Source of the DNA: Oxalobacteraceae bacterium
Lineage (GTDB): Bacteria > Pseudomonadota > Gammaproteobacteria > Burkholderiales > Burkholderiaceae_D
NCBI GenBank assembly: GCA_947374865.1
Contig: CANCDR010000011.1
Coordinates: 1-64,000 of the forward strand
Direction of reading: 5' to 3'
DNA: 64,000 nucleotides
In this document: one piece after another, positions 40,150 through 57,442 of the stretch
How the letters are laid out: each line of letters begins with the position of its first letter
Position numbering within the stretch: position 1 is the first letter of the stretch
Program-made: the position numbers and the translations under genes
The notes under the pieces: generated by a model
What the model was told of the DNA's origin: nothing
What the model saw: the letters and a program-made list of their open reading frames with translations, nothing else
The model's database searches: none

Positions 40150-40266
40150 GTGATTCCTGTTTTGCTTGGCATTTGCATGCTTTGGTGGATGTTGACGAAG
40201 TTTTCACTTCATCTTCTGATTCTTCAATGTGGGGCGATTTTTTTAAAGCGTACGATCAATTCCAAC

Positions 40267-40983
40267 TCAAGAGCGCCTATGACTCACACCCGCAGCCATC
40301 AATACTGCCTTATCGAGCTGACACATTGTACCGATTGACGCTGCTAGCTGCTCGCGTACATCGCGCTGTCCGAAGGCCGCCTGCATGGCGTTGGCATCAG
40401 CGAACCAGACTTCAATAATCGCATCGAAATCAAATCCCGGCGGACGTTCAGCTTCAACGGCATTCAAGACCACGCGTCCGGTCAGCGAAAGACTATTCAA
40501 TGTCAGCACCAGCGCCTCAAGAAAAGCCTGCATCGCGAGTTCCGGCGCGCGCGGGATGAAGGCGAACAGTATCGCCTCACCCAAGGGACCATCATGCACC
40601 ACCCGTTCGTGCGCTACGAGGGTGAAATCGCGCACGTAGCGGTCAAAAACGCGCAATTCGTCGGGCCGCATAATGGTACGCGTTTCTGGGTCATTCCAGA
40701 TATCCGTTGCTACGCCCAAATCGCGCAGTCGTAGCAGGTTGACGCCGTCATAATCCTGATTCACGCCGCGCAGCGCAAACGCCTGCCCATCCATCCCCAA
40801 GCGCGTGCACTGCGTCACGCCCACCACTTTATCCTGAACGTTACGGCACTGACGTCCCAAGGCAGAATGTTCACGCCAAGCCGGTGCAAATTCCTTCTCT
40901 GCTAGGGAAGGATTGCGACGGGCGAGGTAAATCATTTTCCATTGCTGGGGGGGGGATTGATGTTGATTCAGAGGTGTATCCAT
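40267..40983 (-). CDS. EthD-like (dimeric alpha/beta-barrel) protein with a C9 tract near its start
   Basis: A 238-residue protein with two ferredoxin-like halves. KMIYLARRNPSLAEKEFAPAWREHSALG near residues 16-43 resembles the EthD family start. A second half begins near GEAILFAFIPRAPELAMQAF. EthD-type proteins include small oxygenase-associated and polyketide-related proteins; the substrate here cannot be inferred. A run of nine C residues (- strand; 40947-40955) lies between the first ATG (40983) and a second ATG (40935) at the domain start. It has no obvious operon partner. Confidence 0.65.
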   Translation of the reverse strand: MDTPLNQHQSPPQQWKMIYLARRNPSLAEKEFAPAWREHSALGRQCRNVQDKVVGVTQCTRLGMDGQAFALRGVNQDYDGVNLLRLRDLGVATDIWNDPETRTIMRPDELRVFDRYVRDFTLVAHERVVHDGPLGEAILFAFIPRAPELAMQAFLEALVLTLNSLSLTGRVVLNAVEAERPPGFDFDAIIEVWFADANAMQAAFGQRDVREQLAASIGTMCQLDKAVLMAAGVSHRRS

Positions 40984-41026
40984 TCAGGTTTGCACTTTTA
41001 CTACAGAGATTTTACTAACTTGAAAA

Positions 41027-41070
41027 TGATTAAAATAATAGGCACAAAACCTATTAACAGCTACTTTAGT
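41027..41070. repeat. Left direct repeat of the hipBA islet
   Basis: About 44 bp resembling 43381-43424 with a few scattered mismatches. The 19 bp at 41030-41048 (TTAAAATAATAGGCACAAA) are identical to 43384-43402. The copies are 2354 bp apart and in the same orientation, enclosing the Phd antitoxin, the AbiEii remnant and hipBA. The short word ATAATAGGCA also occurs in the hipB upstream region near 43335. Confidence 0.75.
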
Positions 41071-41170
41071 AGACAAACAAACTTCCACGTACATCGTTGC
41101 AGCCATTAAATTCTTAAAGTGGAAATGTGGCAAGCCGCAATCCTGGAAGATCACGCATAGCATCGCGGAA

Positions 41171-41395
41171 TTACCCTTTGCCGTCAGCAAGCCACGTATT
41201 AGCCTGTTTAAGTGTCAGCATCGAAAGCCCCAAGCCTTCGAGCGCCTGGGCTGCGTTCATGGTTCGCGGGGAAGGCACGATTTGCGCAATCAAGGTTTGG
41301 TTTCGCTGAATAGCCACTGACTCTCCTTGGCTACTCACCCGGTCCAGTATCTCTCTCGTATTTCGCGCAAGGTCAGTGGCACTAATTGTTTGCAT
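41171..41395 (-). CDS. Phd/YefM-type antitoxin (orphan)
   Basis: A 74-residue Phd/YefM antitoxin: MQTISATDLARNTREILDRVSSQGESVAIQRNQTLIAQIVPS is the DNA-binding family domain. The C-terminal toxin-binding tail (LGLSMLTLKQANTWLADGKG) is present. AGGAG precedes the ATG. No intact toxin gene follows. The 68-codon frame running on from its 3' end (41190 down to 40984) has only faint VapC-like wording (LMAATMYVEVCLSTK) and lacks the PIN-domain N-terminus. It may be a toxin remnant, or spurious. Confidence 0.85.
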   Translation of the reverse strand: MQTISATDLARNTREILDRVSSQGESVAIQRNQTLIAQIVPSPRTMNAAQALEGLGLSMLTLKQANTWLADGKG

Positions 41396-41426
41396 TGATG
41401 AACTCCTGATCTACACATCGATAAGC

Positions 41427-41454
41427 ATCATACGTACTCTATGTAATGAGTCAA
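41427..41454 (-). promoter_or_regulatory. Sigma-70 promoter of the Phd-type antitoxin
   Basis: On the - strand, TTGACT (41454-41449) and TATGAT (41432-41427) are separated by 16 bp; each matches 5 of 6 consensus bases. The antitoxin ATG is about 30 bp downstream. Same -35 hexamer and spacing as the promoter of the other antitoxin at 38355-38382. Confidence 0.55.
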
Positions 41455-41522
41455 ATTAATCCGATTAAAAAACCCAAGGTCAACGGCATGCCTGCGCCAA
41501 TAACTCTCTTTTTGGCGCGAAG

Positions 41523-41735
41523 ACCGCCACAGCCACCAGAACAGCCACACGTTTTTATCTGCGCTACCAGGGGCCACTGCCCGCTGGAAACGACGTGAAG
41601 GTTGATATCACGATCGCCGAAGTCCTGTGCTTCCCACTGCAAGATCGCCCGATTCTTCGCATCTACGATGGCTTTGACGATTTACTCGAAGGGCCACTAA
41701 TCGCTCGCATCAGCGCTTCAACGATCCGGCGATAA
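41523..41735 (+). pseudogene. Remnant of an AbiEii/AbiGii-type nucleotidyltransferase toxin
   Basis: The + strand frame ending in TAA at 41733-41735 encodes RFYLRYQGPLPAGNDVKVDI followed by TIAEVLCFPLQDRPILRIYD. This matches the middle of AbiEii-family toxins (type IV toxin-antitoxin/abortive infection nucleotidyltransferases). The N-terminal GGTSL active-site part and the C-terminal half are missing, and an in-frame stop lies upstream at 41466. The recognisable part starts near 41550. Its last 18 bp overlap the convergent hipA 3' end. I infer a decayed toxin gene truncated when hipBA arrived, or the reverse. Confidence 0.65.
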
Positions 41736-42986
41736 TTCTAAAAAGAAACAGTCAGGCAGGATGGCCGGAGCGATGTACTCTACGTCTCGGGCAGACACTC
41801 CACAAGCGAAGAAACTCTCACGCCACTCACGCCCGACTGCCACAATGTGGTCGATTTCCTTACGGGCCTCTTCGGCGGATAATCCGAAGCGGCCTGACTG
41901 CGATAGCAAATTATAGACACTGGCAGTGCGACCGTAGTTGCCGACGGTGAGTGCCAAGTCGCGTCGCTCAAGGCTCACCACTGGAGCAGGTACCAAATCG
42001 TAGGCGGGCGATAGGCGCCATCCTTTTGGCCGGCGCAGCAAAGCGTGGTTACGCGGGTGATCATCGTTGTTGGTCACTGCGGCGTTGAAGACCATGCGCC
42101 GGAACAGCTCCGCACAATCGGCTTCGGGCTTATCGGACCAACGACGCAGCTTATCGGCCAGCAGCGGATAGGACCAGCGTTCACGATTGAGATAGCTATC
42201 GTCGCAATCGAGCACCGTCAGCCCGCTAACCAAACCGAAGCGTAAATACCCTTTGGCCGAATACTCACGATCAAAGCGCTGCAGCATCAACACGTCGCCG
42301 TCGCCAACCTTTTGCAGGCGCGCCTGCGCAACATTCAGGCCGCAGCGGCGCGCAAGATCGAGAGTGGCGAATTCAATGCGCTGCCAGTTGCAGCGATCAT
42401 CCTTGGCGGGGAACTTGCCCAGCCACAGACAGTTCGCATCCTCGATGGTGGCTTTGGGTCGGGCACCCCCCATGCTGGTGCCGGGATCGAGCCGTTCCAG
42501 CAGGTGCAGCGGTAGCGCCCTACCTTCCTCGATAGCCTGCGCAGAAGCAATCAGTTCGGCGAGCTGATGGGTGCGGTTGTACTGCCGCTTGGGGGCGGGT
42601 GGCTCGGCCTTGAGACCGAAGCTCAGATAACCAGCGCCATCCTGCGGACCATGTAGCAGATAGTCGATTTCATGGAGTTCCCCCGCAGCGCGTTCAAGCT
42701 TGTGCTCGATGACCCGCCTTCCCCAAGCGTCCGGGCTCGCATCACGCACAGCACTGGGGATGCCTTTTAGTTGAGTGAACTCGTGGACGGTCTTGTCCAG
42801 AGGCAGGCGATACGGATCGAGCGCGACTGCTTGAGCCAGCTGAAGATAGCGATCACCATAGCGAAAGCGGCCAATCTGCGTACCGTCTGGCAAAGTCTGC
42901 ACTCTCAGCAGCGCCGCCGGCACCGTGTCCAAGCTGCCGGGGAGCTGAACGTAGACGTAGGCTTCGCGCTCAGAAGTCATAGTCAT
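41718..42986 (-). CDS. hipA: HipA-family serine/threonine kinase toxin
   Basis: HipA-type toxins phosphorylate a translation factor or tRNA synthetase and induce dormancy. It has 422 residues. The N-terminal HipA_N domain is at about 10-120. The flexible P-loop TSMGGARPK is at 170-178. The catalytic loop FNAAVTNNDDHPRNHALL is at 300-317, with the metal-binding SPAYDLVP at 326-333. All kinase motifs appear intact. Its start overlaps hipB by 17 bp. The specific target cannot be told from sequence; GltX is the E. coli case. Confidence 0.92.
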   Translation of the reverse strand: MTMTSEREAYVYVQLPGSLDTVPAALLRVQTLPDGTQIGRFRYGDRYLQLAQAVALDPYRLPLDKTVHEFTQLKGIPSAVRDASPDAWGRRVIEHKLERAAGELHEIDYLLHGPQDGAGYLSFGLKAEPPAPKRQYNRTHQLAELIASAQAIEEGRALPLHLLERLDPGTSMGGARPKATIEDANCLWLGKFPAKDDRCNWQRIEFATLDLARRCGLNVAQARLQKVGDGDVLMLQRFDREYSAKGYLRFGLVSGLTVLDCDDSYLNRERWSYPLLADKLRRWSDKPEADCAELFRRMVFNAAVTNNDDHPRNHALLRRPKGWRLSPAYDLVPAPVVSLERRDLALTVGNYGRTASVYNLLSQSGRFGLSAEEARKEIDHIVAVGREWRESFFACGVSARDVEYIAPAILPDCFFLELSPDR

Positions 42987-43302
42987 TGCTGCTCTTGCGT
43001 GGCTTGCCCACGCGGGTGGGACGACGCGCGGCTTCGAGCGCCTTGCCGTGCGCGTCGATGTCAGGATCAGCCATGGCGTCCAGCGATTTTTCTAAACCGA
43101 GCGCCCACAGCACCGTAAAGCAGACACCAATAGCTGTGCCGGGCTTACCAAGCTCCAGAGCCGTGAGGGTATTACGGTTAATCCCTGCTTTACTGGCAAG
43201 GTCCACCACTGACCAGCCGCGACGAATCCGCGCGACACGGATACGCTGGCCAAGATGTGCGACACGCTCGGAGACATCCACTGGAATGGTGAAATTGCTC
43301 AT
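42970..43302 (-). CDS. hipB: HipB-type Xre-family antitoxin/repressor
   Basis: A 110-residue protein with an Xre helix-turn-helix at about 12-70 (LGQRIRVARIRRGWSVVDLASKAGINRNTLTALELGKPGTAIG) and a basic C-terminal tail. HipB proteins neutralise HipA and repress the operon. It lies directly upstream of hipA and overlaps it. A TATAAT hexamer (43337-43332, - strand) about 30 bp before the start may be its -10 element. Confidence 0.9.
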   Translation of the reverse strand: MSNFTIPVDVSERVAHLGQRIRVARIRRGWSVVDLASKAGINRNTLTALELGKPGTAIGVCFTVLWALGLEKSLDAMADPDIDAHGKALEAARRPTRVGKPRKSSNDYDF

Positions 43303-43380
43303 AATTTTGGGCTTAGATATACTTAACGACCATTATAATAGGCAAATTATGAATATCCCGCAAGGCTAATATGGCTTATT

Positions 43381-43424
43381 TGCTTAAAATAATAGGCACA
43401 AACCCTTTTATCAGCTAATTAAAT
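43381..43424. repeat. Right direct repeat of the hipBA islet
   Basis: Partner of 41027-41070, sharing an identical 19-bp core at 43384-43402 and recognisable similarity for about 44 bp. It lies about 80 bp upstream of hipB and touches the 3' end of the doubtful frame at 43415-43714. It could mark the islet boundary, or it could be a HipB operator duplicated on the other side. Confidence 0.75.
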
Positions 43425-43714
43425 GGGCAAATGCTTTTTGCGTCATACGCGGCATTACCGGTAAAAAAATAAGCAAGTCCGAGGGTTTCGATCGTAGAAG
43501 TGAAACGCACCAGCCGGGCCGCATCCGTCGCGTCCGACTTTACGTCCGGGTTGGCCACCCCGTCGCGCCGGATATAAGGCAAGCCATTCGGGCTTGCGAG
43601 ACTAATTCGCACTGCCGCTTGCAAAATAAGCGCCTTCGATTTCCCCTCACCCAATGAGGGTGTCACAGAGACTTCCTGACGCCTGGATTGTCCATCGCGC
43701 GCGACACTGCCCAC
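43415..43714 (-). CDS. Doubtful 99-codon frame, possibly a gene remnant
   Basis: The 99-residue translation (starting MGSVARDGQSRRQEVSVTPS) resembles no family I recognise. It has no good ribosome binding site. Its 3' end coincides with the islet's right repeat, so it might be the remains of a gene cut by insertion. It may equally be chance: the reading frame is GC-richer than its surroundings but shows no domain, signal peptide or membrane segment. Confidence 0.2.
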   Translation of the reverse strand: MGSVARDGQSRRQEVSVTPSLGEGKSKALILQAAVRISLASPNGLPYIRRDGVANPDVKSDATDAARLVRFTSTIETLGLAYFFTGNAAYDAKSICPFN

Positions 43715-44156
43715 TTTTCTGCGACACGTTTATTTTATTGCGATCGGTTTTGTCCCTACATGTTGCTTGTTGATATCTTTGTCAAATAGAATTAAATCGT
43801 CAGTTCGGAAGTTTGTGCTAGCGCCATTTTTAAAATTTCACTCACCGATCGACGAAACAATGCATCAAGAAAGGCGCGTATTTTTACCATCTTAATTCTC
43901 AGAAAATATCGCACAAAAAACTTCGCCTTTTTTGAAGCTTTGCGAAAAGTTGTGTTGGACACAGAGGTAGAAAAATTCCTGATCTAACGATTTGAACCAC
44001 AGAGTCTGATTGGATTTCAACGAAATTCCATCTTCGGGTTCAGGTTCATCGATAACTACCGCAAAAATTATAGGCATCACCCAGCCACACCGACTCTAAT
44101 TCGACAATTTGAAGTGCAATTTTTTGATGTGCCACAGCTGAAATGCCAAGGAAAAA

Positions 44157-45050
44157 ATGAATAAAATTCGTAAAGCTGTTTTCCCGGTGGCTGGTCTCGG
44201 TAGTCGATTTTTACCTGCCACGAAAGCCCAGCCAAAAGAGATGCTGCCGATTGTAGATAAGCCGTTAATTCAATATGCCGTCGAGGAAGCAGTGGCGGCT
44301 GGTATAACAGAAATGATATTCATCACCGGTCGCAACAAGCGCTCCATTGAAGACCATTTTGATAAAGCTTACGAGTTGGAAGCCGAGTTGGAAGCGGCGC
44401 AAAAATATGCCTTGCTCGAAGCGACGCAAAACATAATTCCAAGGCACATTAATTGCATTCACATTCGCCAGCCGGCACCACTCGGACTTGGTCATGCCGT
44501 GCTATGTGCGCGCAGCGTAATTGGCGATGAACCGTTCGCGATTTTGCTAGCCGATGATTTTATGGACGTCGATTCTGGAGTCTTGCCGGTACTGGCACAG
44601 ATGACAGCGATCTATGCGCGCGAGGGAAAAAGCCTGTTGGCAGTGCAAGAGGTGCCGTTGGCGGACACACGCCGATATGGCATTGTCGGCGTCTCGCCTT
44701 ACAAGGACAAGGACAAGGACAAGGACAGGTTAGAGCACATCAACCTGATCGTTGAAAAGCCGCGATCCGAAGTCGCGCCGTCAACGCTGGCAGTTGTTGG
44801 CAGGTACGTGCTCTCCGGGGCGATTTTCGCGCACCTGGAAGGCTTGGATAAAGGGGTCGGCGGTGAAATCCAACTGACAGATGGCATTGCAGCGATGCTC
44901 AAAAAGCAAGATGTACTGGCTTACCGATATCAGGGCCAACGTTATGACTGCGGCTCCAAACTTGGCTACCTGAAGGCGACGGTCGCGATCGGGCGCAAGC
45001 ATCCCGAAACAGGCGTGGCATTTTCGTCCTACCTCGAGACATTAGCATAA
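44157..45050 (+). CDS. galU: UTP-glucose-1-phosphate uridylyltransferase GalU
   Basis: GalU makes UDP-glucose, the sugar donor for OpgH and for envelope polysaccharides. It has 297 residues. The N-terminal nucleotide-binding motif [39 protein letters not shown] is intact, as are ILLADDFMD and VEKP. A four-unit AAGGAC repeat inserts KDKDKDKD near residues 183-190, in a surface loop position of the family. The tolC-like gene follows after 22 bp, so the two are probably co-transcribed. Confidence 0.96.
44703..44726 (+). repeat. Hexanucleotide repeat (AAGGAC x4) inside galU
   Basis: Four perfect copies of AAGGAC encode KDKDKDKD. Six-base units keep the frame, so copy-number change would alter loop length without inactivating the enzyme. 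Confidence 0.9.
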
Positions 45051-45072
45051 GCAAACCTACAAGGCCTGCTCA

Positions 45073-46551
45073 ATGCCACATTCCAGACAGAAGTCGTCCC
45101 TTTTAATACTTCTGCTTGGTCTGGGACTCACTGCGCATGCGTATGCCTCACCGGCCGTCACCTTGGGTGAACGCGCCGCAGAAGTGACGGCGATACCGGA
45201 CAATTTGGGTCTGGCGTTTGAACAAGCGCTGCAGAATCGTCTTGACCTGCGCCTGGCCGATGGGCGTATCAAGATCGCGGAACTCGGCCAGGAAGTCCAG
45301 CAGGCCATGCGGTGGCCACAGGCATACATTAACTGGAACAGCGGAAAAAACAAGAACCAGGGCTATATTGACCCGACAACATTCGAGAGGCAATTGGCAA
45401 ACAGCGCCAGTGGTCAGAACTTTGCTGACAATAACAACACCATCCTTTTCAATACCCAGACCCTGTCATTTGGGGTCAGCTACCTTTTATACACCGGTGG
45501 CGAAGTAACACGGGCAAGCCAAAGCGCCGCACTGCTCCGGCAAGATGCGGGTCTTGACAAATTGCAATTGATAACAAAGGTTCTAGATGAAGTCGGGCAG
45601 GCTTATTTTCAATTGAAGTTAGCTCTGCTGCAAGAACAATTTGGCCAAAAATCCCTGCGCATTTCTGAACGCAAAATGACAGAAATGGCATTTCCGAGGA
45701 CATCTGATCCACTGATTGAAAAACAAAACAAGGCCGAACAGTTGAGATTTGAAGTCATGCAAATGCAGGCGCAGAGGAATCAGCTCGAAAGCAAGGACAA
45801 ATTACGCGCATTTTGCAACGTATTGGCAGTGGAAGTTTGTCCCAAAATCGATGCCACTGACTGGCTAGAGCGGCATGTTAGCGCTCTGCCCGGCTGGCTC
45901 AGCGCATTGCTTGAAGAAGCGCGTAACCTGCCAAAATCTCGCTATGAAGTCGCAAAGGCACTTCGCACCAATGAAATGCTGGACGCTCGCAGTGCATATC
46001 TGCCGCACGTTTGGCTCGACATAACACGTGGTATCAGCGGCAATAGCGGCGCATCGTTTAGCGGCACATTTCGGGAAAACAGATCCAACAATTGGCAAAT
46101 AAACGTCTCCATGAACTGGACACTGTTTGATGGCTTTTCTGCGTCAAATATTGCGCGTCAGGCAAGTCAACGCATCCTCGATGTCGGCATCGAAAACAAA
46201 CAAGCGCTGGCGGCGCGCACCGACGATCAGCAGCGCAAAGTAATCACCGCCGCACGTGCCAGACTGAACTGCAAAATCGCGCACCTCGAACACATCATCG
46301 CGCACGACAGTCTGCAGGCCGAGGTGGTTCGGCATCAGCGTGGTGAGATTGCCCTGCACGCGCTGCAAGACGAGCAGCTTAAATATGCGGCCACGAATTT
46401 TGCATGGCAAACCCAGCTGCTTGAAATTGCGCAAGCCGAGTTGGCGCTACGTCTGAGCGGACTGCCTGCGAATGTGGCTGCGGAACGCTGTGGCACGACG
46501 ATCGAATCAATTTCAGGGGACCTCAGCTTGAACCTTGAAACAGCACACTGA
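45073..46551 (+). CDS. TolC-family outer-membrane efflux/secretion channel protein
   Basis: A 492-residue protein with a signal peptide (residues 1-25, ending AHAYAS). Two similar halves rich in coiled coil follow, the TolC pattern: NLGLAFEQALQNRLDLRLADGRI, a mid part with LDEVGQAYFQLKLALLQEQ, then VSMNWTLFDGFSASNIARQASQ and a C-terminal helix rich in Ala/Gln/Leu. TolC proteins are trimeric channels used by efflux or type I systems; no transporter or adaptor partner is adjacent. It follows galU closely and converges on acvB with an 18-bp gap. Confidence 0.88.
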   Translation: MPHSRQKSSLLILLLGLGLTAHAYASPAVTLGERAAEVTAIPDNLGLAFEQALQNRLDLRLADGRIKIAELGQEVQQAMRWPQAYINWNSGKNKNQGYIDPTTFERQLANSASGQNFADNNNTILFNTQTLSFGVSYLLYTGGEVTRASQSAALLRQDAGLDKLQLITKVLDEVGQAYFQLKLALLQEQFGQKSLRISERKMTEMAFPRTSDPLIEKQNKAEQLRFEVMQMQAQRNQLESKDKLRAFCNVLAVEVCPKIDATDWLERHVSALPGWLSALLEEARNLPKSRYEVAKALRTNEMLDARSAYLPHVWLDITRGISGNSGASFSGTFRENRSNNWQINVSMNWTLFDGFSASNIARQASQRILDVGIENKQALAARTDDQQRKVITAARARLNCKIAHLEHIIAHDSLQAEVVRHQRGEIALHALQDEQLKYAATNFAWQTQLLEIAQAELALRLSGLPANVAAERCGTTIESISGDLSLNLETAH

Positions 46552-46569
46552 ACGCATAAACCTATTCCC

Positions 46570-48018
46570 TCATTCCATCTTCGTCCCAATATTAGCAATC
46601 ATCTGCCGTACCAGAACAGGATACTTTTTCTCTGGTAATAGTTCATCATCGATCAATACCAGCTTCGAGCCAAATTTTTCCAATTCAGAGCATATTTTTT
46701 TGTGCCCCTTGATACCTTCGACACAAATACTTTTAGCCCATTGCATCTTTTCAATCTCCGGAAAGATTGACAACCGATTCGGCCCATTATCCAGGTTCAT
46801 CCAACTGGACAGGTGAAATACAAATGCGGCAGTTCTGTCCAGGCCCAACAGCGAAATAAGCGCAACTTTTCCTTTACTTTCAGGCGATAGCTTATTCGCG
46901 GCAAAAGGCAAGACATTGGCGCCAAATGAATAGCCAATCAAGATCACCTTCGTTTTGTTCTGTTTCTTTGTGAAGTGGGATATTAGTTGTTCAAGTGTGG
47001 CAGCGGTTTCATCTGGTGTTCGAGCCTTCCAAAAATAGCTAAGGGTGCTCAACGCTACTGTCGGAATCCCATTTTGGGATAAATATTTTGCGATTTCTTT
47101 ATCGATACCTGCCCAACCACCGTCGCCGGTGAATAAAATCGCCAGAGTGTCGCCGCCACTTTTATCAGATTTGACTTCATTCAATGGCAAGTTTCCCTCA
47201 CTTGGATCAGTTCTGAGTTGTTCATTATTTGTTGAATCCAGCCAAGTCAGAACCTGAAGCATTTTATAAATCGGGTTAGTGCTGGTGTCATGCTCAACCG
47301 TTACTCTTGCGTTCTCCAAAGTATTAAGGAATTCATTTGTCAGCCGGTCTTCCGCTGAAACATTGTCCTGAAAAACATACCAAATTGTAGACAATTTTCC
47401 ACTCGCTCCATTTTTACTTGCTTGCTTTTCCCCCGGTTTAAAACCAGCCACATTGCAGTACATATTTTCTTCAAATCGTGGGAGTTTAAAATTTATACTG
47501 ATACCAGCAAAAAATTTATCCCTGGCCGATTGAGCGAGTGCAAGATAAACGTCGGTTGCACCACCATGAGCTCCTATCAGTATTGCTCGATCTTGCTTAT
47601 CAATGTCATATTTGTCGCGCAGAAAATGGGCAATTGAAATAAGTTTTTCGGAAATATCCAAACATTGTTGATTCGGAATTTCAGATTGTCTGCGCAAATT
47701 TTTGCTTTCAATTTTCGCAACTTGATATCCTCGTTTTACAAAATTTGTCACCAATGCGCCCGTCATTGGGTCTTCTTCATCGATATAAATAATTAACTCC
47801 AAAGAACTGTTTCTCTGCCGATAGAATTTAATATCCGAAATTCCGAAAATCGACAGCTTGTCTACGAAAATCTCACCTTGAATATCCAATTGCCTTTGGT
47901 AGAGCGAATTCGGATCAACAAACAGGCTATAAAATAAGCCTGCGATCACGATTAAGCCCGCCGTGATTGCTGTGATAATTAATGTGAATTTCGCAGGCTT
48001 TTTCATGAACATTCTCAA
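46570..48018 (-). CDS. acvB: AcvB/VirJ-family protein (probable aminoacyl-phosphatidylglycerol hydrolase)
   Basis: In Agrobacterium, AcvB is the periplasmic hydrolase that removes lysine from lysyl-phosphatidylglycerol made by LpiA/MprF. This protein has 482 residues, an N-terminal membrane anchor (about 11-33), and two alpha/beta-hydrolase-like halves. The C-terminal half carries FTGDGGWAGIDKEIA and a nucleophile elbow GYSFG (362-366). The N-terminal half has GAHGG (149-153), with His where Ser would be. It lies directly downstream of mprF. The start is uncertain: TTG 48018, or ATG at 48012 or 48006. Confidence 0.88.
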   Translation of the reverse strand: MRMFMKKPAKFTLIITAITAGLIVIAGLFYSLFVDPNSLYQRQLDIQGEIFVDKLSIFGISDIKFYRQRNSSLELIIYIDEEDPMTGALVTNFVKRGYQVAKIESKNLRRQSEIPNQQCLDISEKLISIAHFLRDKYDIDKQDRAILIGAHGGATDVYLALAQSARDKFFAGISINFKLPRFEENMYCNVAGFKPGEKQASKNGASGKLSTIWYVFQDNVSAEDRLTNEFLNTLENARVTVEHDTSTNPIYKMLQVLTWLDSTNNEQLRTDPSEGNLPLNEVKSDKSGGDTLAILFTGDGGWAGIDKEIAKYLSQNGIPTVALSTLSYFWKARTPDETAATLEQLISHFTKKQNKTKVILIGYSFGANVLPFAANKLSPESKGKVALISLLGLDRTAAFVFHLSSWMNLDNGPNRLSIFPEIEKMQWAKSICVEGIKGHKKICSELEKFGSKLVLIDDELLPEKKYPVLVRQMIANIGTKME

Positions 48019-48122
48019 TTCTTAAGTTTGGCGTATTTAAAATTCTCGGTCACAGAACGCGGTTCGATGGGTGGCGCGCAATTGGAACGTAAAAGCACCG
48101 TGTTTCCAAGTGCCAATAATGT

Positions 48123-50741
48123 TTAGAATTTGGAAAATAATCCCTTGACACCGCCGGAAATCAACGTTGTTACAGCCAGCAATGCAGAGGCAGTTTGTAA
48201 TCCTGGTGGCGCAGCCAGATAAATCGGCTTCCACTCTGGATCAAACTTTTCCTTATATCCATACACACCGGTAAAGTTATAGAATCCGCCACCCACCCGA
48301 AAAAATGTGCGTCCGATTTTGTGCCATATGGGTGCGAGAGCGTGATCTTCCAAACCTGACAGGGGTGCAATCCCGAGATTGAAATAAATGAATCCTTCCT
48401 GCTTCGCCCACAGAATCAAACTGATACTTAAAAACTCCATGATGCCGTTCGGTACACCCGGTAAATAGCGCATGAGATCGATCGCCATCTGATGACGATT
48501 GTTCAAGGTCAGGATGTTTGCAAACGCAGCAATTTCTCCATTTTTTATTACTACCGCGATTTGGGCGTTTTTTAAATATTCTTCATCAAAAAAGCAGAGT
48601 GAGAAGCGCTTTTCCCTTGCGTTCTTTTCACGCAGCCAGGCATCCGATATGTTTTTTAGCTGCGGCAGAATCGCCTCGATCTGACCCGGCGCCACAATTT
48701 CAAAAACATAGCCTTCACGCTGGTACCTATTGATCGCATTGCGCAGGCTTTGGCGCTTTTTCCCTTCCAGTCCAAATGACTGCAGCGGGATCCAAGCCTG
48801 CTGGCCCAATTTGATGAGACTCAGCCCAAGATTCAGATAAATGGGAATATGTTTGATCCCAATCTCGTAAAACGCAATTTTCGCAAGCACCTTATCGGCC
48901 GCTTCCCGGAATAGCCAAACCAATTCCTCAAACTCGGTTTTATCGCCTACGGGATCACCCATGGCGATCCAGAATTGCCTGGTTACACCAAACATCAAAA
49001 AGCTCTTTTTTGTTTTGCTCCACAAAATGTATTTGTCTCCAGTCAGTACCAGGTGGTGGTCCGTAATATTTTCATTGCGCACCATTTCTGTTGCTAATTC
49101 CAAATCCAGTTTGCTAGGCAAGGATAGATCCGTGCGGGTCGTACGCAAGAGCCGATAAAGAATTAAGCCAGCCAATGCCGCAGACAAGGCAAACAGGGAA
49201 CGCAAGAAACGCGGTACATCACCATCAACAGAAATTTGCCACCAGAGATCGTGCGAATAGGGGATATTTTTGTATGAAGCAAAACCCAGCCAAGTTGACA
49301 GGCCAATGACAGCCGCACCAATGAGCACATGACCAATCGGCATTTCTAATTTAAGTAGCGCTGACTTACGATAAAAATGTTTACGAGTAGGAATAAATGC
49401 GATCAGCACTGCGCCAAGAATCAGTGCCACCGGAAGGTCCACGCCCTTGAGAATGGACGAGAACATGCCAATAAACAGCAGGGTTATGGTCGCAAAATAG
49501 GCCGAATCCAGTCGCGTGGCGACGGCGCGGGAAAGCAGTATCATGCCCAATCCGACTAGGCTGACAATGACATGAGATATGTCAATCAAGGGCAGTGGCA
49601 CATAGCGATGCATCCACTCCATGCGTTCATGTACTTCCGGTGTGGCGCCTGAAAACAATAATATGCTGCCGATCAGGAACAATAAGATGGAAAAGATTTT
49701 TGGCGTGGCAAAGTGAATAAGTTGAAATGCGTAACGCAGGCGCAGCGGACTCAGAGATTTCAGCGTTTTCGTTTCGTACAAAAGCAGAAGTATCCCGGCA
49801 ATCAGGAGTGGGACAAGATAGTAAATAAAACGATACAGAATCAGCGCAGCCAGTATTTTTTCCGGTGGCGAATTATTTCCCAACATGAGAATGAAACTGC
49901 TTTCAAAAATCCCTATACCACCAGGCACCTGGCTTACAAGGCCAGCAAGTTGCGCGACCAAAAAGATGATGATGAACTCACCGAAGCTGATATGGACGAA
50001 CTGGTGCAGGGGAATAAACAAGACCAGACCAGTAAAAAGCAATTCCAGGCTGCCAGAAGCTATTTGTTGCAGTGCGATAGCTGGCGTAGGCAGAGCGATC
50101 TTTTCGCCCCTGAATTGCAGCGACTGATGATTGATTACACACAGAACCAGCCAGACCAAAGTCAGGCAAGCGCCGATTATAAGCAAAGCTTTTAATGGAC
50201 CGGAACTGAGTAGTTCGCTTAAAAAAATACTTTGCGGGGATGCAGCAACAGAAAACAGTAACAAGGTAAAAGCACTCAAAAAATAACTGAGTGAACCAAG
50301 CACGGTGATCTTGATGATTGCGCTATTTGACAAGCCAAAATCCCGATAAACGCGAAAGCGGATGCTGCCACCGGAAATCAGGGAAGAACCAGCGTTCTGG
50401 CTGATTGCATTGCTTAAAAATGCGCCAAATAAAATGTACTTGAATTCGAGCTTTTCCCCGGTGATTTGGATGGCCAGCCATTCGCTGACGCCTAGCAGAA
50501 AATACCCTACTCCGCTAATCAACAGCATTTCCAGAATGATTTCTAGTGAACTGGACCATAGGTCCGTTGCGACGGCACTCCAACCATATTCCGAAAGATG
50601 TTGATTGACCGCGAAGGCGGCCACCACGAATAACATCAAACTAATCGAGGGTTTGAGATTTTTCAAAGAATTGGCTTTAAGCGTGCTTATCATCTGCGCG
50701 TCGATACATCGTGCACACCACTTTTTCAGTGCCAAAACCAT
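48123..50741 (-). CDS. mprF: Bifunctional aminoacyl-phosphatidylglycerol synthetase/flippase MprF
   Basis: MprF transfers an amino acid, usually lysine, from tRNA to phosphatidylglycerol and flips the product, lowering surface negative charge. It has 872 residues. The N-terminal flippase region, with about 14 hydrophobic segments, runs to about residue 540 and includes NAGSSLISGGSIRFRVYRDFG. The C-terminal DUF2156 synthase domain ends with the family hallmark FNLGIAPLSGLEDHA, then FYNFTGVYGYKEKFDPEW. AAGG precedes the ATG. It starts 12 bp after opgH. Confidence 0.95.
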   Translation of the reverse strand: MVLALKKWCARCIDAQMISTLKANSLKNLKPSISLMLFVVAAFAVNQHLSEYGWSAVATDLWSSSLEIILEMLLISGVGYFLLGVSEWLAIQITGEKLEFKYILFGAFLSNAISQNAGSSLISGGSIRFRVYRDFGLSNSAIIKITVLGSLSYFLSAFTLLLFSVAASPQSIFLSELLSSGPLKALLIIGACLTLVWLVLCVINHQSLQFRGEKIALPTPAIALQQIASGSLELLFTGLVLFIPLHQFVHISFGEFIIIFLVAQLAGLVSQVPGGIGIFESSFILMLGNNSPPEKILAALILYRFIYYLVPLLIAGILLLLYETKTLKSLSPLRLRYAFQLIHFATPKIFSILLFLIGSILLFSGATPEVHERMEWMHRYVPLPLIDISHVIVSLVGLGMILLSRAVATRLDSAYFATITLLFIGMFSSILKGVDLPVALILGAVLIAFIPTRKHFYRKSALLKLEMPIGHVLIGAAVIGLSTWLGFASYKNIPYSHDLWWQISVDGDVPRFLRSLFALSAALAGLILYRLLRTTRTDLSLPSKLDLELATEMVRNENITDHHLVLTGDKYILWSKTKKSFLMFGVTRQFWIAMGDPVGDKTEFEELVWLFREAADKVLAKIAFYEIGIKHIPIYLNLGLSLIKLGQQAWIPLQSFGLEGKKRQSLRNAINRYQREGYVFEIVAPGQIEAILPQLKNISDAWLREKNAREKRFSLCFFDEEYLKNAQIAVVIKNGEIAAFANILTLNNRHQMAIDLMRYLPGVPNGIMEFLSISLILWAKQEGFIYFNLGIAPLSGLEDHALAPIWHKIGRTFFRVGGGFYNFTGVYGYKEKFDPEWKPIYLAAPPGLQTASALLAVTTLISGGVKGLFSKF

Positions 50742-50753
50742 TCTTCGTGCCTT

Positions 50754-52772
50754 TCAAAAAGGATGCTGCTCGTGGACCTCGGATTTTGCCGCTTGCGGCC
50801 AGTCCATCTTAGTAGCGGGGGGCCGCAGGTGGCCGATGGTCGGGGCGATCTTCATTTCCTGGATCGGCATTTCCCGCCAATTGACTGGCGGAAGAGTCAG
50901 CCCCGTTTCGGTGAACGACTCACTGGGAAGGGACACCAGGTCCGTCGCCGTCAACAGGCGCTGCAAATCGGTGAGAACAGGATCTTCATTGGTTTCATCG
51001 GGCGTGATAAAGATGTCCAGCAATTTGGATTTTGTGCCTAATTCCAGGCTGCTGGAATAGCGCACAATTGGCGCAGCAAAGACGATGCCGAAAAGTATAG
51101 GTGTAAGCCACCAAAAAAACATTGGTGCACAGGCGTAGGTCGCTGCGCCCCAAATGAGACCGACAAGGCTCATTTTGGCAGTGCGGGCAAAACTTTCGCG
51201 CCAACTAAGCAAGCGGCCTTCGCGCTCCTGTGTATCCCATTTAACCTCAAAGCCCATCAGTACTGCCACGACAAAAAAAGCGTGATAGATCATCATGATG
51301 GGAGCGATTAAGATCGCAAATATGACTTCAATGAGTGCGCCCAGAAGAATCGCGCGAGTGCCTCCAAATTGCTTCCGGCGGTGCGTGAGAGTCGCGACAA
51401 CGCCCAATAGCTTGGGCAATATAAGCAGTGCCACCGTCAGGATGATCAGATTTTCGATCAAATCCGTTTTGATAATGGTCCAATCAATATTGATTTGGCG
51501 AAACTCCAACGTATTAATTATTTTTATAAAATACGGTTTGCTATTAAGCGAGCGAATAAAGGCATCTGCTGTACTTAAGATAAGCATGCAGGCCCAGACC
51601 AGTGAAATAATGTAGGCAGTCGCACCCAACAGAAAATGCAAACGGCTGACCGGGTGTAAGCCACCCGCATTGAGCAGGCCAAGGTGCTGGATGTTGCCTT
51701 GTGCCCAGCGTCGGTCACGTGTGGCGAAGTCGATGATATTGCAGGGTACTTCTTCATAGCTGCCGGCGATGTCTGGCAACAAAAATACGTCCCAGCCAGC
51801 GCGCCTGAGCAAGGCTGCTTCAACAAAATCGTGACTGAGAATATCACCGCCGAAGGGTGCCTTCCCGGACAAGGTAGGCAAGCCGCAATGATTGATGAAG
51901 GCTTGTACACGCACGATGGCGTTATGCCCCCAATAGTTGGCGGCGCTGGTTTGCCAGAAGGCGTTTCCAGTAGCGAGCATTGGACTGTAAAGTATCGCCG
52001 CAAATTGCACATATCGACCGAAAAACGTCGTTTGGCGTACTGGTACCGGCACCGTCTGGATCAGGCCACAGCGAGGATTACCTTGCATCGTACGCACCAG
52101 GCGTAACAGGCATGCCCCGCTCATGATACTGTCGGCATCCATCAGGACCATATACTCATAGTTGCTACCCCAGCGTTGCAAAAAGTCAGCGATATTGCCG
52201 ACTTTGCGCTGATAATTTTTTTCTCGACGACGATAAAATATGTGCTTTTTCAAATCACCAACGCGATTGGTAAACTGCAGCCACGCCTCCCGTTCGCATT
52301 CGGCAATTGCAAGATCGGTCGTATCGCTCAGGAGATAGAAATCAAAGTGCTCTATTTCTCCTGTGGCAAGTAGCGAATTCAAAGTGGCTTCGAATCCAGC
52401 GATCACACGTTGGGTGTTTTCGTTATAGATCGGCATAACGATGGCGGTGCGCTGGAGGATCTGCAGCGTATCGAACGTATGTTTGGCTGTTGCTTGTAAA
52501 GTGAGCGGGTCGCGGCCCAGCATGACCAGGACGAAGCCAAAGATTGCGCTCCAAAATGCGGTGGCAATCCAGCAAAAGGAAATCGCAAAAAATATCAATG
52601 ATAGTGCTGCGAGCGCCGTTGTGCCGTTTGCACACAGGATGGCATACATCATGTAAATTCCGGTTAACCAGGTCATCACGGTCAACCCGATATACAAGAG
52701 AAGTCGAAACATCTTCGCCGGCAATTGAATTGCATTTCCGCGCGACAGGATTTGATTGACAGAGGCTTTCAT
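50754..52772 (-). CDS. opgH: Glucans biosynthesis glucosyltransferase OpgH (MdoH)
   Basis: OpgH is the inner-membrane GT2 enzyme that polymerises glucose from UDP-glucose into the backbone of osmoregulated periplasmic glucans. It has 672 residues. Membrane helices lie near 22-85 and in the C-terminal third. The catalytic motifs are DAD at 212-214 and RDRRW at 352-356. It is shorter than E. coli OpgH (847), mainly for lack of the long cytoplasmic N-terminal extension. It lies 21 bp after opgG. Confidence 0.95.
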   Translation of the reverse strand: MKASVNQILSRGNAIQLPAKMFRLLLYIGLTVMTWLTGIYMMYAILCANGTTALAALSLIFFAISFCWIATAFWSAIFGFVLVMLGRDPLTLQATAKHTFDTLQILQRTAIVMPIYNENTQRVIAGFEATLNSLLATGEIEHFDFYLLSDTTDLAIAECEREAWLQFTNRVGDLKKHIFYRRREKNYQRKVGNIADFLQRWGSNYEYMVLMDADSIMSGACLLRLVRTMQGNPRCGLIQTVPVPVRQTTFFGRYVQFAAILYSPMLATGNAFWQTSAANYWGHNAIVRVQAFINHCGLPTLSGKAPFGGDILSHDFVEAALLRRAGWDVFLLPDIAGSYEEVPCNIIDFATRDRRWAQGNIQHLGLLNAGGLHPVSRLHFLLGATAYIISLVWACMLILSTADAFIRSLNSKPYFIKIINTLEFRQINIDWTIIKTDLIENLIILTVALLILPKLLGVVATLTHRRKQFGGTRAILLGALIEVIFAILIAPIMMIYHAFFVVAVLMGFEVKWDTQEREGRLLSWRESFARTAKMSLVGLIWGAATYACAPMFFWWLTPILFGIVFAAPIVRYSSSLELGTKSKLLDIFITPDETNEDPVLTDLQRLLTATDLVSLPSESFTETGLTLPPVNWREMPIQEMKIAPTIGHLRPPATKMDWPQAAKSEVHEQHPF

Positions 52773-52793
52773 GAACGCGCCTTCGAAAGATGT

Positions 52794-54431
52794 TTAAAGT
52801 TCGTCCGGGTACCAGACATAGCTCCAGACTTCGCTTAGGCGCTTGCTTTTGGCTTTTAAAAAAACCCGCATATCGACCACGTTATTTGCATCCGGCACAA
52901 GCTTGAAGGACACACGATAGGTTTTCCCATCAGGAAGTTTTCGCGTATGCAAATCGCTGACTGTGCCGGAGCTTTTGCTTATTTCAGCTTCGACGGCGTT
53001 GCCTTCGGTGAATTTATCGAGTTCACCACCCTGGAAATCGATCACGAATTGACGTTTGCTTTTTGGTGGCGGGTTCAATAAGCCGGCAACAGATCCCCAG
53101 CCTGTGCGTGTTTGCACGACGGTAGCGACGCTTTGCTCTGCTATCTTGCCATCCAGTGGTTTGAGGCTGTATTTGAATTCACGGCTCTCGCCTGCTTTCA
53201 TCGCCTGGTCCGGTACCCAGTAAGCGACAATATTGTCATTGGTTTCGCTGTCGGAGGGAATTTCTACCAATTCAACGCGTCCCTTGCCCCATGCGTTTTC
53301 AGGCTTGACCCACAGGCTGGGGCGCTTCTCATATTTGGCCTCCAGGTCGATGTAATTGCTCAGGTCACGATCACGTTGAATCAAGCCGAAGCCTTGTGGA
53401 TTGGTATCCGCGAGCGACGTCACATGCAATCTTCGATGATTGTTGAGGGCGCGCCAGACCCATTCGCCAGACACTGTTTGCATGAGGAGCCCATCGGAAT
53501 CGTGGACTTCCGCGCGGAAATCATCGAAGCGCGATGCGTTGATACTGTTTTCACCAAATAGAAACATGCTGGTGAGAGGCGCGATACCTATTTTTTTTAT
53601 GTTCTTGCGCGCGAAAATGCGTGCGGTAATTTTTATTTCTGTATTTAAACCAGGATAGGCATCAAAACGATAGGCACCTGTAACGGATAGGCTGTCAAGC
53701 AACGCATAAATCACCACATGATTTTCTGCAGGTTTCGGCTTGAGCATCCAATACTCGCGAAAAATGGGAAATTCTTCGCCATTGGATTCCGCGGTATCAA
53801 TCGCCAGTCCACGTGCGGAAATACCATAGGCCTGGTGCGGGCCGAGCATGCGGAAATACGATGAAGAAGCGCCTTGGAAAGTAATGAACTCGTCCTTGTA
53901 TTGGCTATTATTGAGTGGAAAATGCACACGGAAACCGGCATATCCCAGATTACTTGGCGCCACACCGGAAAGTGGCGCAGCGGTTCCCTCATAATTGAAC
54001 AGGCTTTGCTTGAACGGAATCGTTGCAGTGGTCCCGTTTTGGACGGTATGGAGAACGACGGGTTCTTTGAAAATATAGCCAGCGTGAAATAGTTGAATTT
54101 CGAATTTTGCTTCGTCGCGCCAGAGTGAAGATTCAGTGCGGAAGCGAATTGAACGATACTGGTCGTAATCCATTTTGGCAAACGCTTCCGGGATCGCATT
54201 TGCCAGCGGTTTGAAGTCGCTTTGCGAGAGCGCTTTTGCACGTGTCGTGATTGAATCAAACAACAGGGGCAATGATTTTTCACTTTCAGATGTGGCTGCA
54301 ATGCTTGGTTTTTCTGCCAACGCGTGACCATTGATGCACAGTGCGGACAGGAATGCTGTAACGCAATTTCGCAGCGCGATCCATTGGGTTCGACGAGTCA
54401 AACACAAAGGCTTTGTGTTTTTTTGGTCCAT
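52794..54431 (-). CDS. opgG: Periplasmic glucans biosynthesis protein OpgG (MdoG)
   Basis: OpgG is the periplasmic partner of OpgH in glucan synthesis. It has 545 residues. The N-terminus is a signal sequence with a pair of arginines (LTRRTQWIALRN) before the hydrophobic core, ending near ALA at 38-40. A Tat signal is possible, but the motif is imperfect. Family stretches are strong: GISARGLAIDTAESNGEEFP, APLTSMFLFGENS, NPQGFGLIQRDRD, WGKGRVELVEIPSDSETNDNIVAYWVPD. It is the first gene of the opgG-opgH-mprF-acvB run. Confidence 0.95.
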   Translation of the reverse strand: MDQKNTKPLCLTRRTQWIALRNCVTAFLSALCINGHALAEKPSIAATSESEKSLPLLFDSITTRAKALSQSDFKPLANAIPEAFAKMDYDQYRSIRFRTESSLWRDEAKFEIQLFHAGYIFKEPVVLHTVQNGTTATIPFKQSLFNYEGTAAPLSGVAPSNLGYAGFRVHFPLNNSQYKDEFITFQGASSSYFRMLGPHQAYGISARGLAIDTAESNGEEFPIFREYWMLKPKPAENHVVIYALLDSLSVTGAYRFDAYPGLNTEIKITARIFARKNIKKIGIAPLTSMFLFGENSINASRFDDFRAEVHDSDGLLMQTVSGEWVWRALNNHRRLHVTSLADTNPQGFGLIQRDRDLSNYIDLEAKYEKRPSLWVKPENAWGKGRVELVEIPSDSETNDNIVAYWVPDQAMKAGESREFKYSLKPLDGKIAEQSVATVVQTRTGWGSVAGLLNPPPKSKRQFVIDFQGGELDKFTEGNAVEAEISKSSGTVSDLHTRKLPDGKTYRVSFKLVPDANNVVDMRVFLKAKSKRLSEVWSYVWYPDEL

Positions 54432-54740
54432 GTAGATTTCCCCGATTAAGAAAAAATTGATTGCACATCGTTATTGAATGGCGCAAATGAAAAGATTGGT
54501 GTTCGAATTAAGCAACAGAAATTTTTAATGCAGCTTATGTTTGGTCATTCCATGATTTGAAGTTAATTCCATATGGATTTAATTTCAAATGAAATAGACT
54601 GAAGTGTGAAAGGTGTCGTGTTGCGCGGACGAAATGCGTGGGGAAGTGTTGCATCAATATCGTATCATTGACGCTGAGGGGTAAATGACTTGGATGACTT
54701 CGCTTTTAATAAACATTGCGCGAGAACTAATTGCACGAAA
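54432..54740. other. Gene-free upstream region of opgG
   Basis: An AT-rich 309-bp stretch separating opgG from the IS remnant. It should contain the opgGH-mprF-acvB promoter. No coding frame, RNA gene or strong promoter motif was recognised. Confidence 0.6.
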
Positions 54741-55110
54741 TCATGAATTCGATTTGCCTTCGATTAACAAAGGAGAGAGCACAACGGTAGTTGTCAATAA
54801 AGATGTCGCGTCACTTCGAGCAGCTATTTTTATTTCCTCCGGCAGCATTCGTTCAGGATTGAGCCAAACTTCGTCCCGCAGCTTCCAATTTCTGGTCTGG
54901 CCTGACCAGCGCTCTGGATGGCGTAATTTTGCCACCTCATAGAGCTGCTCCCGGCGCTTGAGCATGGCATGTTCCTTGCCTTCATGTCGTTGCACCGGCG
55001 TGACGAATTTGAGTGCTGAATGCCTATGCTGGTGGTTATACCAGCGCACGAATTGCAGCGTCCAAGTGCGCGCTGCTTCCACCTTCTCAAACGCCCCTGG
55101 TGTCAGGATA
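54741..55110 (-). pseudogene. Truncated IS3-family transposase (OrfB C-terminal part)
   Basis: Only the C-terminal end of an IS3-family DDE transposase remains: ARTWTLQFVRWYNHQHRHSALKFVTP, then KEHAMLKRREQLYEVAKLRHPERWSG and LRDEVWLNPERM. The catalytic DDE core and OrfA are missing. The match ends near 55105, where an unrelated IS-end-like sequence (TGTCAGGATAG, 55101-55111) begins. The open frame runs past the presumed IS end at 54792. Confidence 0.8.
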
Positions 55111-55244
55111 GTTGGCAAGTTGCCGATTTTGGCATTTTTACTAATCAGGGGGCAGGAGTCGCATCGTGCCACGCATCCCACAATCCCGTAAAGGAGCCAT
55201 CCTGTCGGGTAGGGCCCCTCGGTGTCAGGATAGACGTCGCGTCA
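54792..55244. repeat. Repeated IS-end-like sequences
   Basis: The 22 bp at 54792-54813 (TGTCAATAAAGATGTCGCGT...) and at 55223-55244 (TGTCAGGATAGACGTCGCGT...) agree at 18 positions and point the same way. A third, partial copy (TGTCAGGATAG) is at 55101-55111. The first lies just beyond the transposase C-terminus, as an IS3-family right end would. Same-direction copies suggest several partly deleted insertions rather than one complete element. Confidence 0.6.
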
Positions 55245-55311
55245 ATTAATTCAAAATAATCCATCTGGGGGCTGAGCAAAGAATTGATGTGAAACACACT
55301 TTGCGGCTACT

Positions 55312-55731
55312 TTAAACACTTAATGATGGGGTGATAAAAACTTTATACAGAAGCCTACCAGGATAAAAAGTGAAAGCACCTGCGATAATCAAACCGCCAA
55401 TGTATGTGTAAGCCATACATTTTTTGTGTCCTAGTATGTTACCGATTCGCGCAAAATAAACACCTCGAGTAATTTGAACAAGCACAAAAATACTCAATAA
55501 ATGGATGGGCGAGTAACCCCAAAAAACACCACTTGGCATTAACTCTTTTATCCAGAAAGAAGTTACGCAAATGATGAACATCATCGCCACCCACAATCTA
55601 CCCATAACTTTATGGAGAGCCGTTCCTTTTTTTCTTAGTAGCTGACAAGCGCCAATCAAAAAGGCGCTTATTGCGAAGAAAAAGTGTATTTGAATATAAG
55701 CAGGGGTATCAAACAATAAGCGGAAATTCAC
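55312..55731 (-). CDS. DUF2306 family membrane protein
   Basis: A 139-residue protein with four hydrophobic segments: IQIHFFFAISAFLIGACQLL, LWVAMMFIICVTSFWI, IHLLSIFVLVQITRG, and YTYIGGLIIAGAFTF. Conserved His residues (H16 in IHFFF, H40 in LHKVMGRLWV, H77 in PIHLLS, H102 in GHKKCM) fit the DUF2306 pattern. The function of the family is not established. It lies between IS debris and guaA with no operon partner. Confidence 0.8.
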   Translation of the reverse strand: MNFRLLFDTPAYIQIHFFFAISAFLIGACQLLRKKGTALHKVMGRLWVAMMFIICVTSFWIKELMPSGVFWGYSPIHLLSIFVLVQITRGVYFARIGNILGHKKCMAYTYIGGLIIAGAFTFYPGRLLYKVFITPSLSV

Positions 55732-55765
55732 TCATCTTCTCCGATACGTTACGATGATTTTGAGT

Positions 55766-55797
55766 AGTGTCACCAGTGTGTCAGTTTAAGTGACACT
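55766..55797. repeat. Inverted repeat between the DUF2306 gene and guaA
   Basis: AGTGTCAC (55766-55773) and GTGACACT (55790-55797) are perfect 8-bp inverted arms around 16 bp. Neither side has the T-run expected of an intrinsic terminator. It could be an operator, a weak guaA 3' structure, or a relic of the neighbouring IS elements. Confidence 0.45.
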
Positions 55798-55864
55798 AAA
55801 ATCGCGCCACATCAACAAAATCAAGGACTTGGTGATTGCTTAGATTGGCGCCTAAAAAATCCTA

Positions 55865-57442
55865 TCACTCCCACTCAATCGTCGCCGGCGGCTTCCCCGA
55901 AATGTCGTACACCACGCGGTTAATGCCACGCACTTCGTTGATGATTCTGTTGGAGACTTTGCCCAGTAATTCGTGTGGCAAATGGGCCCAATGGGCGGTC
56001 ATGAAATCCTGAGTTTGTACGGCGCGCAGGGCGACGACGTATTCGTAGGTGCGGCCATCGCCCATCACGCCGACCGACTTCACTGGCAAAAATACCGCGA
56101 AGGCCTGGCTGGTCAAGTCGTACCAGGAACGACCTTCGGCATCCAGGGTCGATCGCAGTTCATCAATAAAGATGGCATCAGCGCGGCGCAGCAGGTCGGC
56201 GAATTCTTTTTTGACTTCGCCCAGAATCCGCACACCCAGGCCGGGGCCGGGGAATGGATGACGATACACCATCGCATGCGGCAGACCCAGCGCCACGCCC
56301 AAGGCGCGCACTTCGTCTTTGAATAATTCGCGTAGCGGTTCGAGTAACTTGAGCTTGAGCGTGTCCGGCAGGCCACCCACATTGTGATGACTCTTGATGG
56401 TGTGACCCTTCTTGCCCTTACCCGCGCTTTCGATCACGTCGGGGTAAATGGTGCCTTGTGCGAGCCATTTAGCGTTTGGTAAGCGCGCCGATTCAACCTG
56501 AAATACTTCGACGAATTCACGCCCGATGATCTTGCGCTTGGCTTCCGGATCGGTCACGCCAGCTAAGTGCCCCATGAACTGGTCGGTGGCATCAACATGA
56601 ATCACTTTAACGCCCAGATTTTGCGCGAACATCTGCATCACCATCTTGCCTTCATCCAGACGCAGCAGGCCGTGATCGACAAAGACACAGGTCAGCTGAT
56701 CGCCGATAGCGCGATGGATCAGCGCGGCGGCGACACTGCTGTCAACGCCACCGGATAAACCCAGAATGACTTCGTCGGTGCCGACCTGCGCCCGGATAGC
56801 GGCGACGGCTTCTTCGATATAGTCGGGCATATTCCAGTCCGAGGCACAGCCGCAGATGTCATGCACAAAGCGGCCGATGATGGCCTTGCCTTGCAGGGTA
56901 TGGGTGACTTCCGGATGAAACTGCACGGCGTAAAATTTACGCTCTTCATCCGCCATGGCGGCGATCGGACAATTATCGGTCGAGGCCATGAGCTTAAAGC
57001 CGGGCGGCAGTGCCATCACCTTATCGCCATGACTCATCCAGACCTTGAGCATGCCGTGGCCTTCGTGCGTGACGAAATCCTGGATGTCTGCAAACAAGGC
57101 GGTATGGCCGCGCGCGCGCAGCTCGGCATAGCCGAATTCGCGTACCGTGCCGTTTTCGACCTTGCCGCCGAGCTGTTCAGCCATCGTCTGCATGCCGTAA
57201 CAAATACCCAGCACCGGCACACCGAGTTCAAACACGGCCTGTGGTGCGCGCGGTGTATCGCCTTCGGTGACGGAGTTCGGTCCACCTGAGAGGATCACGC
57301 CAGAGGCGCCGTAATTGCGCACGAACTCATCGCTCACATCGTAGGGAAAGACTTCGGAAAATACCCCGGCATCGCGCACGCGACGGGCAATTAATTGCGT
57401 GACTTGGGAACCGAAATCAAGAATGAGAATTTTTGCGTGCAT
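55865..57442 (-). CDS. guaA: GMP synthase (glutamine-hydrolysing) GuaA
   Basis: GuaA converts XMP to GMP. The start used is the ATG at 57442 ([17 protein letters not shown]), giving 525 residues, the family length; a TTG at 57463 is in frame but unsupported. The N-terminal class I glutamine amidotransferase has catalytic C81 in GICYGMQ. The ATP-pyrophosphatase P-loop is [14 protein letters not shown]. The C-terminal dimerisation domain ends [16 protein letters not shown] large hairpin lies 39 bp upstream, between it and guaB. Confidence 0.97.

Follow-up and report, generated by a model that had tools for sequence, protein, structure and literature searches.

A probably co-transcribed opgG-opgH-mprF-acvB block in an apparently inserted stretch at the guaA 3′ end of an Oxalobacteraceae genome

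The first 64,000 nucleotides of contig CANCDR010000011.1 of an Oxalobacteraceae bacterium (assembly GCA_947374865.1), the window analysed here, carry the genes opgG, opgH, mprF and acvB in succession, and the explanation that accounts best for them, which we hold with somewhat better than even confidence, is an acquired, probably co-transcribed unit that joins opgG-opgH with mprF-acvB and forms part of an insertion at the guaA integration site. The four genes are assigned by profile, share one strand and are closely spaced; the block is absent from the sister genome, lies at an insertion hotspot beside guaA and ends with an AcvB that has lost its histidine motif. Each of the two modules is already known; their joining was met in no other genome surveyed.

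Transcription would start with opgG (mdoG; positions 52,794-54,431 of the window, minus strand like the other three; 545 amino acids), which matches Pfam PF04349 with 616 bits at a cut-off of 25 and no NCBIfam model. It would proceed through opgH (mdoH; 50,754-52,772; 672 amino acids; NF003958, 785 bits, cut-off 419), which encodes a glucosyltransferase, and mprF (48,123-50,741; 872 amino acids; NF033480, 810 bits, cut-off 600), by profile a full-length bifunctional aminoacyl-phosphatidylglycerol (aminoacyl-PG) synthase/flippase in which the flippase domain PF03706 and the synthase domain PF09924 are both above cut-off, to a gene of the acvB/virJ family (46,570-48,018; 482 amino acids counted from a TTG codon; PF06057, 159 bits, cut-off 22), which places a VirJ domain protein beside MprF. 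Each of the four thus exceeds a curated cut-off in Pfam or NCBIfam, and the common direction and the gaps of 21, 12 and 104 bp are as the initial annotation had described them. Purine-rich stretches precede the starts of opgH and mprF; the start of acvB is less clear, since an ATG 6 bp or another 12 bp into the TTG frame may be the real one. A terminator and promoter scan of the region lists no terminator-like site in the three gaps, which is weak evidence because the sites it reports are no commoner there than in shuffled DNA. Judged from the sequence, the four genes probably form one transcription unit, in line with the single operon that had been proposed.

The first three proteins keep the residues by which their families are recognized. 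OpgH contains both MDADS (residues 211-215) and RDRRW (352-356), which we take to be the glucosyltransferase motifs of this protein. In OpgG, the aspartate in ETNDNIVAYW (396-405) aligns with Asp361 of E. coli OpgG, the counterpart of the OpgD general acid (PMC10514313). MprF, aligned with solved MprFs, holds a Glu-Arg gate pair and a tyrosine in GGIGIFE (274-280) and LYRFIYY (302-308); for the Rhizobium tropici protein, such a pair 24 residues apart and a tyrosine of the lipid site have been described (PMC8131360). All four window proteins sit on long branches in their trees, with highest identities there of 45% for OpgG and 39% for OpgH. Near-invariant columns, as counted over 20 OpgG, 18 OpgH, 82 MprF and 45 AcvB homologues after filtering, are kept in 81 of 91, 107 of 131, 77 of 91 and 20 of 30 cases, respectively, a share below that of the lowest homologue for OpgH, MprF and AcvB, with OpgG as the exception. 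The MprF tree places the window protein beside Methylococcaceae, a placement that was not accepted as pointing to an mprF donor in view of the long branches. Gene order and tight spacing of opgG and opgH, together with the retained Asp361 equivalent, are those of the opgGH (mdoGH) operon, from which the window differs in the divergence of its proteins and in the mprF gene that follows, an arrangement seen in no other surveyed genome.

AcvB has kept its nucleophile and lost its histidine motif. Ser364 in GYSFG is the equivalent of Ser336, a serine in all 58 homologues compared, the aspartate of GDGGW is likewise retained, and residues 457-462 read DDELLP in place of GxHHF with the catalytic His433, where HH stands in 58 of 58, a set which includes many related rhizobia rather than 58 independent cases and which leaves out the window's own locus (L001), L002-L005 as short copies of L093-L096, and incomplete open reading frames (ORFs). 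A HMMER alignment to the solved AcvB agrees on the missing GxHH motif, and a frameshift was rejected as its cause, the other two frames giving no HH at the site. In alpha/beta-hydrolases, the histidine follows the last strand and precedes the last helix, and this is where a structural model of the window protein (mean predicted local distance difference test score, pLDDT, 82) puts the position of the missing motif; the VirJ domain of Brucella and esterases came up in the fold search, and 39 of 50 AcvB references were used in the structure alignment. Histidines remaining in the C-terminal half are at positions 348, 402 and 439, and a profile search of the genome gave no second PF06057 match.

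The substrate side of AcvB has changed as well. Asp271, Asp340 and Asp370 matter for the lysyl head group in AcvB (PMC13197417). The equivalent of the first is kept, the second is replaced by asparagine and the third aligns with alanine, so that two of three are altered, the Asp370 position being variable among AcvB homologues too. The initial annotation had assigned the matching hydrolase to this gene; family and nucleophile agree with it, and the absence of GxHH puts the role in doubt. In a related study, a VirJ histidine mutant lowers lysyl-PG like the wild type and an AcvB His433 mutant retains intermediate activity (PMC13135905), which tells against a dead enzyme and leaves hydrolysis by the window AcvB doubtful. 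That the adjacent histidine explains the activity retained by these single-histidine mutants might be guessed. The order mprF then acvB is otherwise that of the lpiA-acvB operon of Agrobacterium and rhizobia, and for A. tumefaciens it is reported that mprF (lpiA) and acvB form an operon and that the proteins interact (PMC13197417), whereas in the window AcvB lacks GxHH and two of the three lysyl-recognizing acidic residues, and opgGH precedes.

The block lies within a 15.7-kb stretch between queE and guaA (40,150-55,863) that appears to be inserted at the guaA 3′ end. This end, GAGTGGGAGTGAT (55,864-55,876, minus strand), includes GAGTGGGA, the core at which the published island GIsul2 integrates at the guaA 3′ end (PMC9376610). 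DNA of the sister genome (G027, 96% complete and the only other genome of the genus compared) matches the window through guaB and guaA with 78-83% identity, and the match ends at the guaA stop codon; its queE and tadA are on a different contig from guaA. What follows guaA in the sister (L143, 12,738-17,927) are unrelated genes, by eye those for a molybdopterin oxidoreductase, a TetR-type regulator, small antitoxin-like proteins and a LysR-type regulator; the site is variable in both species. A guaA search gave matches in 57 of 60 family genomes, of which the best 30 of the 57 loci were analysed, leaving 28 when the window genome and the sister are set aside. In 7 of these 28, guaA is followed directly by queE and tadA, and in 6 by a complete or partial tyrosine integrase as identified by Pfam; among the 21 loci without queE after guaA one was too short, and of seven longest ORFs from the other 20 that by eye resembled integrases and were searched, six matched. 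The other family loci have a different sequence after guaA, or too little of it. Where guaA ends were compared, the gene closes with GAGTGGGARTGAT in five of the six integrase-bearing loci, with GAATGGGAATGAT in the sister and with TAA or TAG in three of the seven uninterrupted ones.

The stretch resembles GIsul2-type islands in its position at the guaA end with GAGTGGGA, in its compositional shift and in the integrases found at the same site in the family, and differs from them in that no integrase was among the ten of its ORFs searched and no second attachment (att) copy was found. Between guaA and opgG, upstream of the latter, are a gene for a DUF2306 membrane protein (55,312-55,731, minus) and an ORF with a C-terminal transposase remnant (54,741-55,181, minus; integrase core rve_3, IS3-type by eye).

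Neither mprF nor acvB is common in the family. Counting the window genome, PF09924 occurs in 12 of 145 family genomes and the AcvB/VirJ family PF06057 in 5 of 145, and profile searches of the sister gave no match to PF09924, PF04349 or PF06057. No opgG or opgH was found in the 80 loci around the nearest MprF relatives in named genomes (the best 80 of 125, with up to 10 kb on each side and some contigs ending sooner), and no second example of the four genes in six MprF regions of the family. An acvB next to mprF is frequent in this set of 80. In eight of these loci (L014, L017, L018, L021, L024, L026, L032 and L080; seven with Methylococcaceae or Methylobacter-type names and one Methylococcales), acvB lies upstream of mprF, opposite to the order in rhizobia. 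In plasmid records the MdoG and MprF families are both present, each counted on its own (the best 40 of 361 and 40 of 76 records). That the combination had not been described holds for the genome surveys and for the literature, where no paper in the open-licence collection and no title in broader searches joined opgGH with mprF-acvB.

Several observations weigh against a single acquired and co-transcribed unit. Of the ORFs in the stretch, ten were searched by profile and none is an integrase, and a search for a second att copy gave nothing above chance level, so that the route of entry is not proven and the inserted element has either decayed or come in by another way. As a candidate for the far-end att, a single recurrence of GAGTGGGA within mprF, on the opposite strand, was rejected, as was a match with two mismatches at 49,540, both being at chance level. 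Trees of the four proteins do not identify a donor, and loss on the side of the sister is an alternative to gain, though PF09924 is as infrequent in the family as stated. Composition favours acquisition, with a G+C content of 41-51% in the block genes against 51-61% in 16 core genes (flagellar genes, queE, tadA, guaA, guaB and ppsA) and an agreement with core codon use of 0.50-0.58 in the block versus 0.62-0.74 in the core, but the two G+C ranges nearly touch (opgH 50.8%, fliM 50.9%) and the codon measure was trained on 14 of the 16 core genes. The 104-bp gap and the unclear start of acvB leave room for its separate expression. Finally, G+C declines along the block, from 49-51% in opgGH over 46% in mprF to 41% in acvB, and the two halves may therefore have arrived separately, in a two-step assembly.

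This last point leads to the explanation that opgGH and mprF-acvB came to lie side by side through successive hotspot insertions, without a common role and expressed from separate promoters or by read-through. It would fit the family-wide use of the guaA end as an insertion site, the difference in G+C between the halves and a combination that is unique in the surveys, but opgH and mprF are only 12 bp apart and no mobile-element remnant was seen between them, and we regard it as unlikely, if not strongly so.

A dedicated regulatory unit which keeps glucan synthesis in step with lipid aminoacylation and hydrolysis, galU providing the UDP-glucose, is a decidedly unlikely alternative. Apart from the tight same-strand spacing, it could draw on co-occurrence in a phylum sample of 398 genomes, where PF04349 is found in 109 and MprF in 42 (those above the NF033480 cut-off among 165 with any match) and both in 23 against 11.5 expected, a figure inflated by related genomes. 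At the level of the order (399 genomes; PF04349 in 58, PF09924 in 21), however, both families meet in three genomes, the window genome (G000), G028 and G192, against 3.05 expected, which is chance level, and in the latter two, 1.1 Mb and 3.7 Mb of the contig separate them. None of the other 22 phylum genomes in which both families occur repeats the four-gene adjacency, by a comparison that omits two further MdoG matches each in G669 and G784: 10 have them at least 220 kb apart on one contig and 12 on different contigs, which leaves room for adjacency where contigs end. That no second example came to light argues against a widespread regulatory unit, as does an AcvB without its histidine motif against a unit built around hydrolysis. 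The initial annotation had set a gene-order survey beforehand as the test that could refute its proposal, and the neighbourhood is absent from the related genomes surveyed; with the sister devoid of all three families, this is not a conserved Burkholderiales unit.

Nor does galU support such a unit. It was placed beside the block together with a TolC-family gene, and the adjacency is real: galU (44,157-45,050) and the gene for a TolC-family outer-membrane protein found by profile search (45,073-46,551) are on the plus strand and converge on acvB across a gap of 18 bp. They are neighbours outside the unit, for which sharing the acvB transcript is impossible. As a source of the OpgH substrate, galU is present, but it is encoded on the opposite strand, and with two more full copies elsewhere in the genome this one is not needed to account for the UDP-glucose supply. 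Its product is 79% identical to that of a full copy some 41 kb further along this contig (86,478-87,272) and likewise 79% identical to a copy in the sister genome; the third full galU is on another contig (C10).

More speculative, and improbable as it stands, is a mobile envelope-charge cassette in which one acquired transcript brings in a periplasmic glucan together with a cationic lipid, and in which AcvB, devoid of hydrolysis, docks to MprF or regulates it on the periplasmic side, so that aminoacyl-PG would be held high and balanced by the glucan. An old vertical block lost in the relatives, which the deep divergence of the four proteins and the lack of a visible donor might suggest, is highly improbable given the uninterrupted guaA-queE junction in 7 of 28 family loci, the scarcity of PF09924 (12 of 145) and PF06057 (5 of 145) and the lower G+C of the block.

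Some further features of the stretch are noted for completeness. A HipA-like gene (PF07804; 41,718-43,302, minus) is preceded by a small helix-turn-helix-like ORF seen by eye (about 42,970-43,302), and the two may be a toxin-antitoxin pair within the inserted stretch. Between the EthD and HipA genes (41,160-41,735), fragments look by eye like what may be left of an AbiE-type antitoxin/toxin pair, and in one family locus (L152) guaA is followed by an antitoxin-like ORF of a similar kind. Scans of the window for Rfam families and tRNAs gave no matches.

Coming back to the acquired and probably co-transcribed unit, the families of its proteins suggest how it would act. OpgH would make and export a glucose polymer, which OpgG would process in the periplasm, and MprF would aminoacylate PG and flip aminoacyl-PG outward, with AcvB at the same face of the membrane but probably weakened, altered in specificity or inactive. 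The host would thereby gain a periplasmic glucan and an aminoacylated lipid, the likely benefit being an envelope with better buffering against low osmolarity, acid or cationic compounds; coordination of glucan with lipid, if there is any, would come on top of this.

If the two modules were merely joined by chance at the hotspot, the block would be ordinary island cargo. The natural AcvB without a histidine motif bears on the unsettled role of the histidine in AcvB/VirJ, whose mutants keep intermediate or full activity (PMC13135905). If the four genes are one transcript, they would link two means of adjusting envelope charge and osmotic balance that have been studied apart, and the organism would offer a natural case of trait gain, next to a sister genome with neither module.

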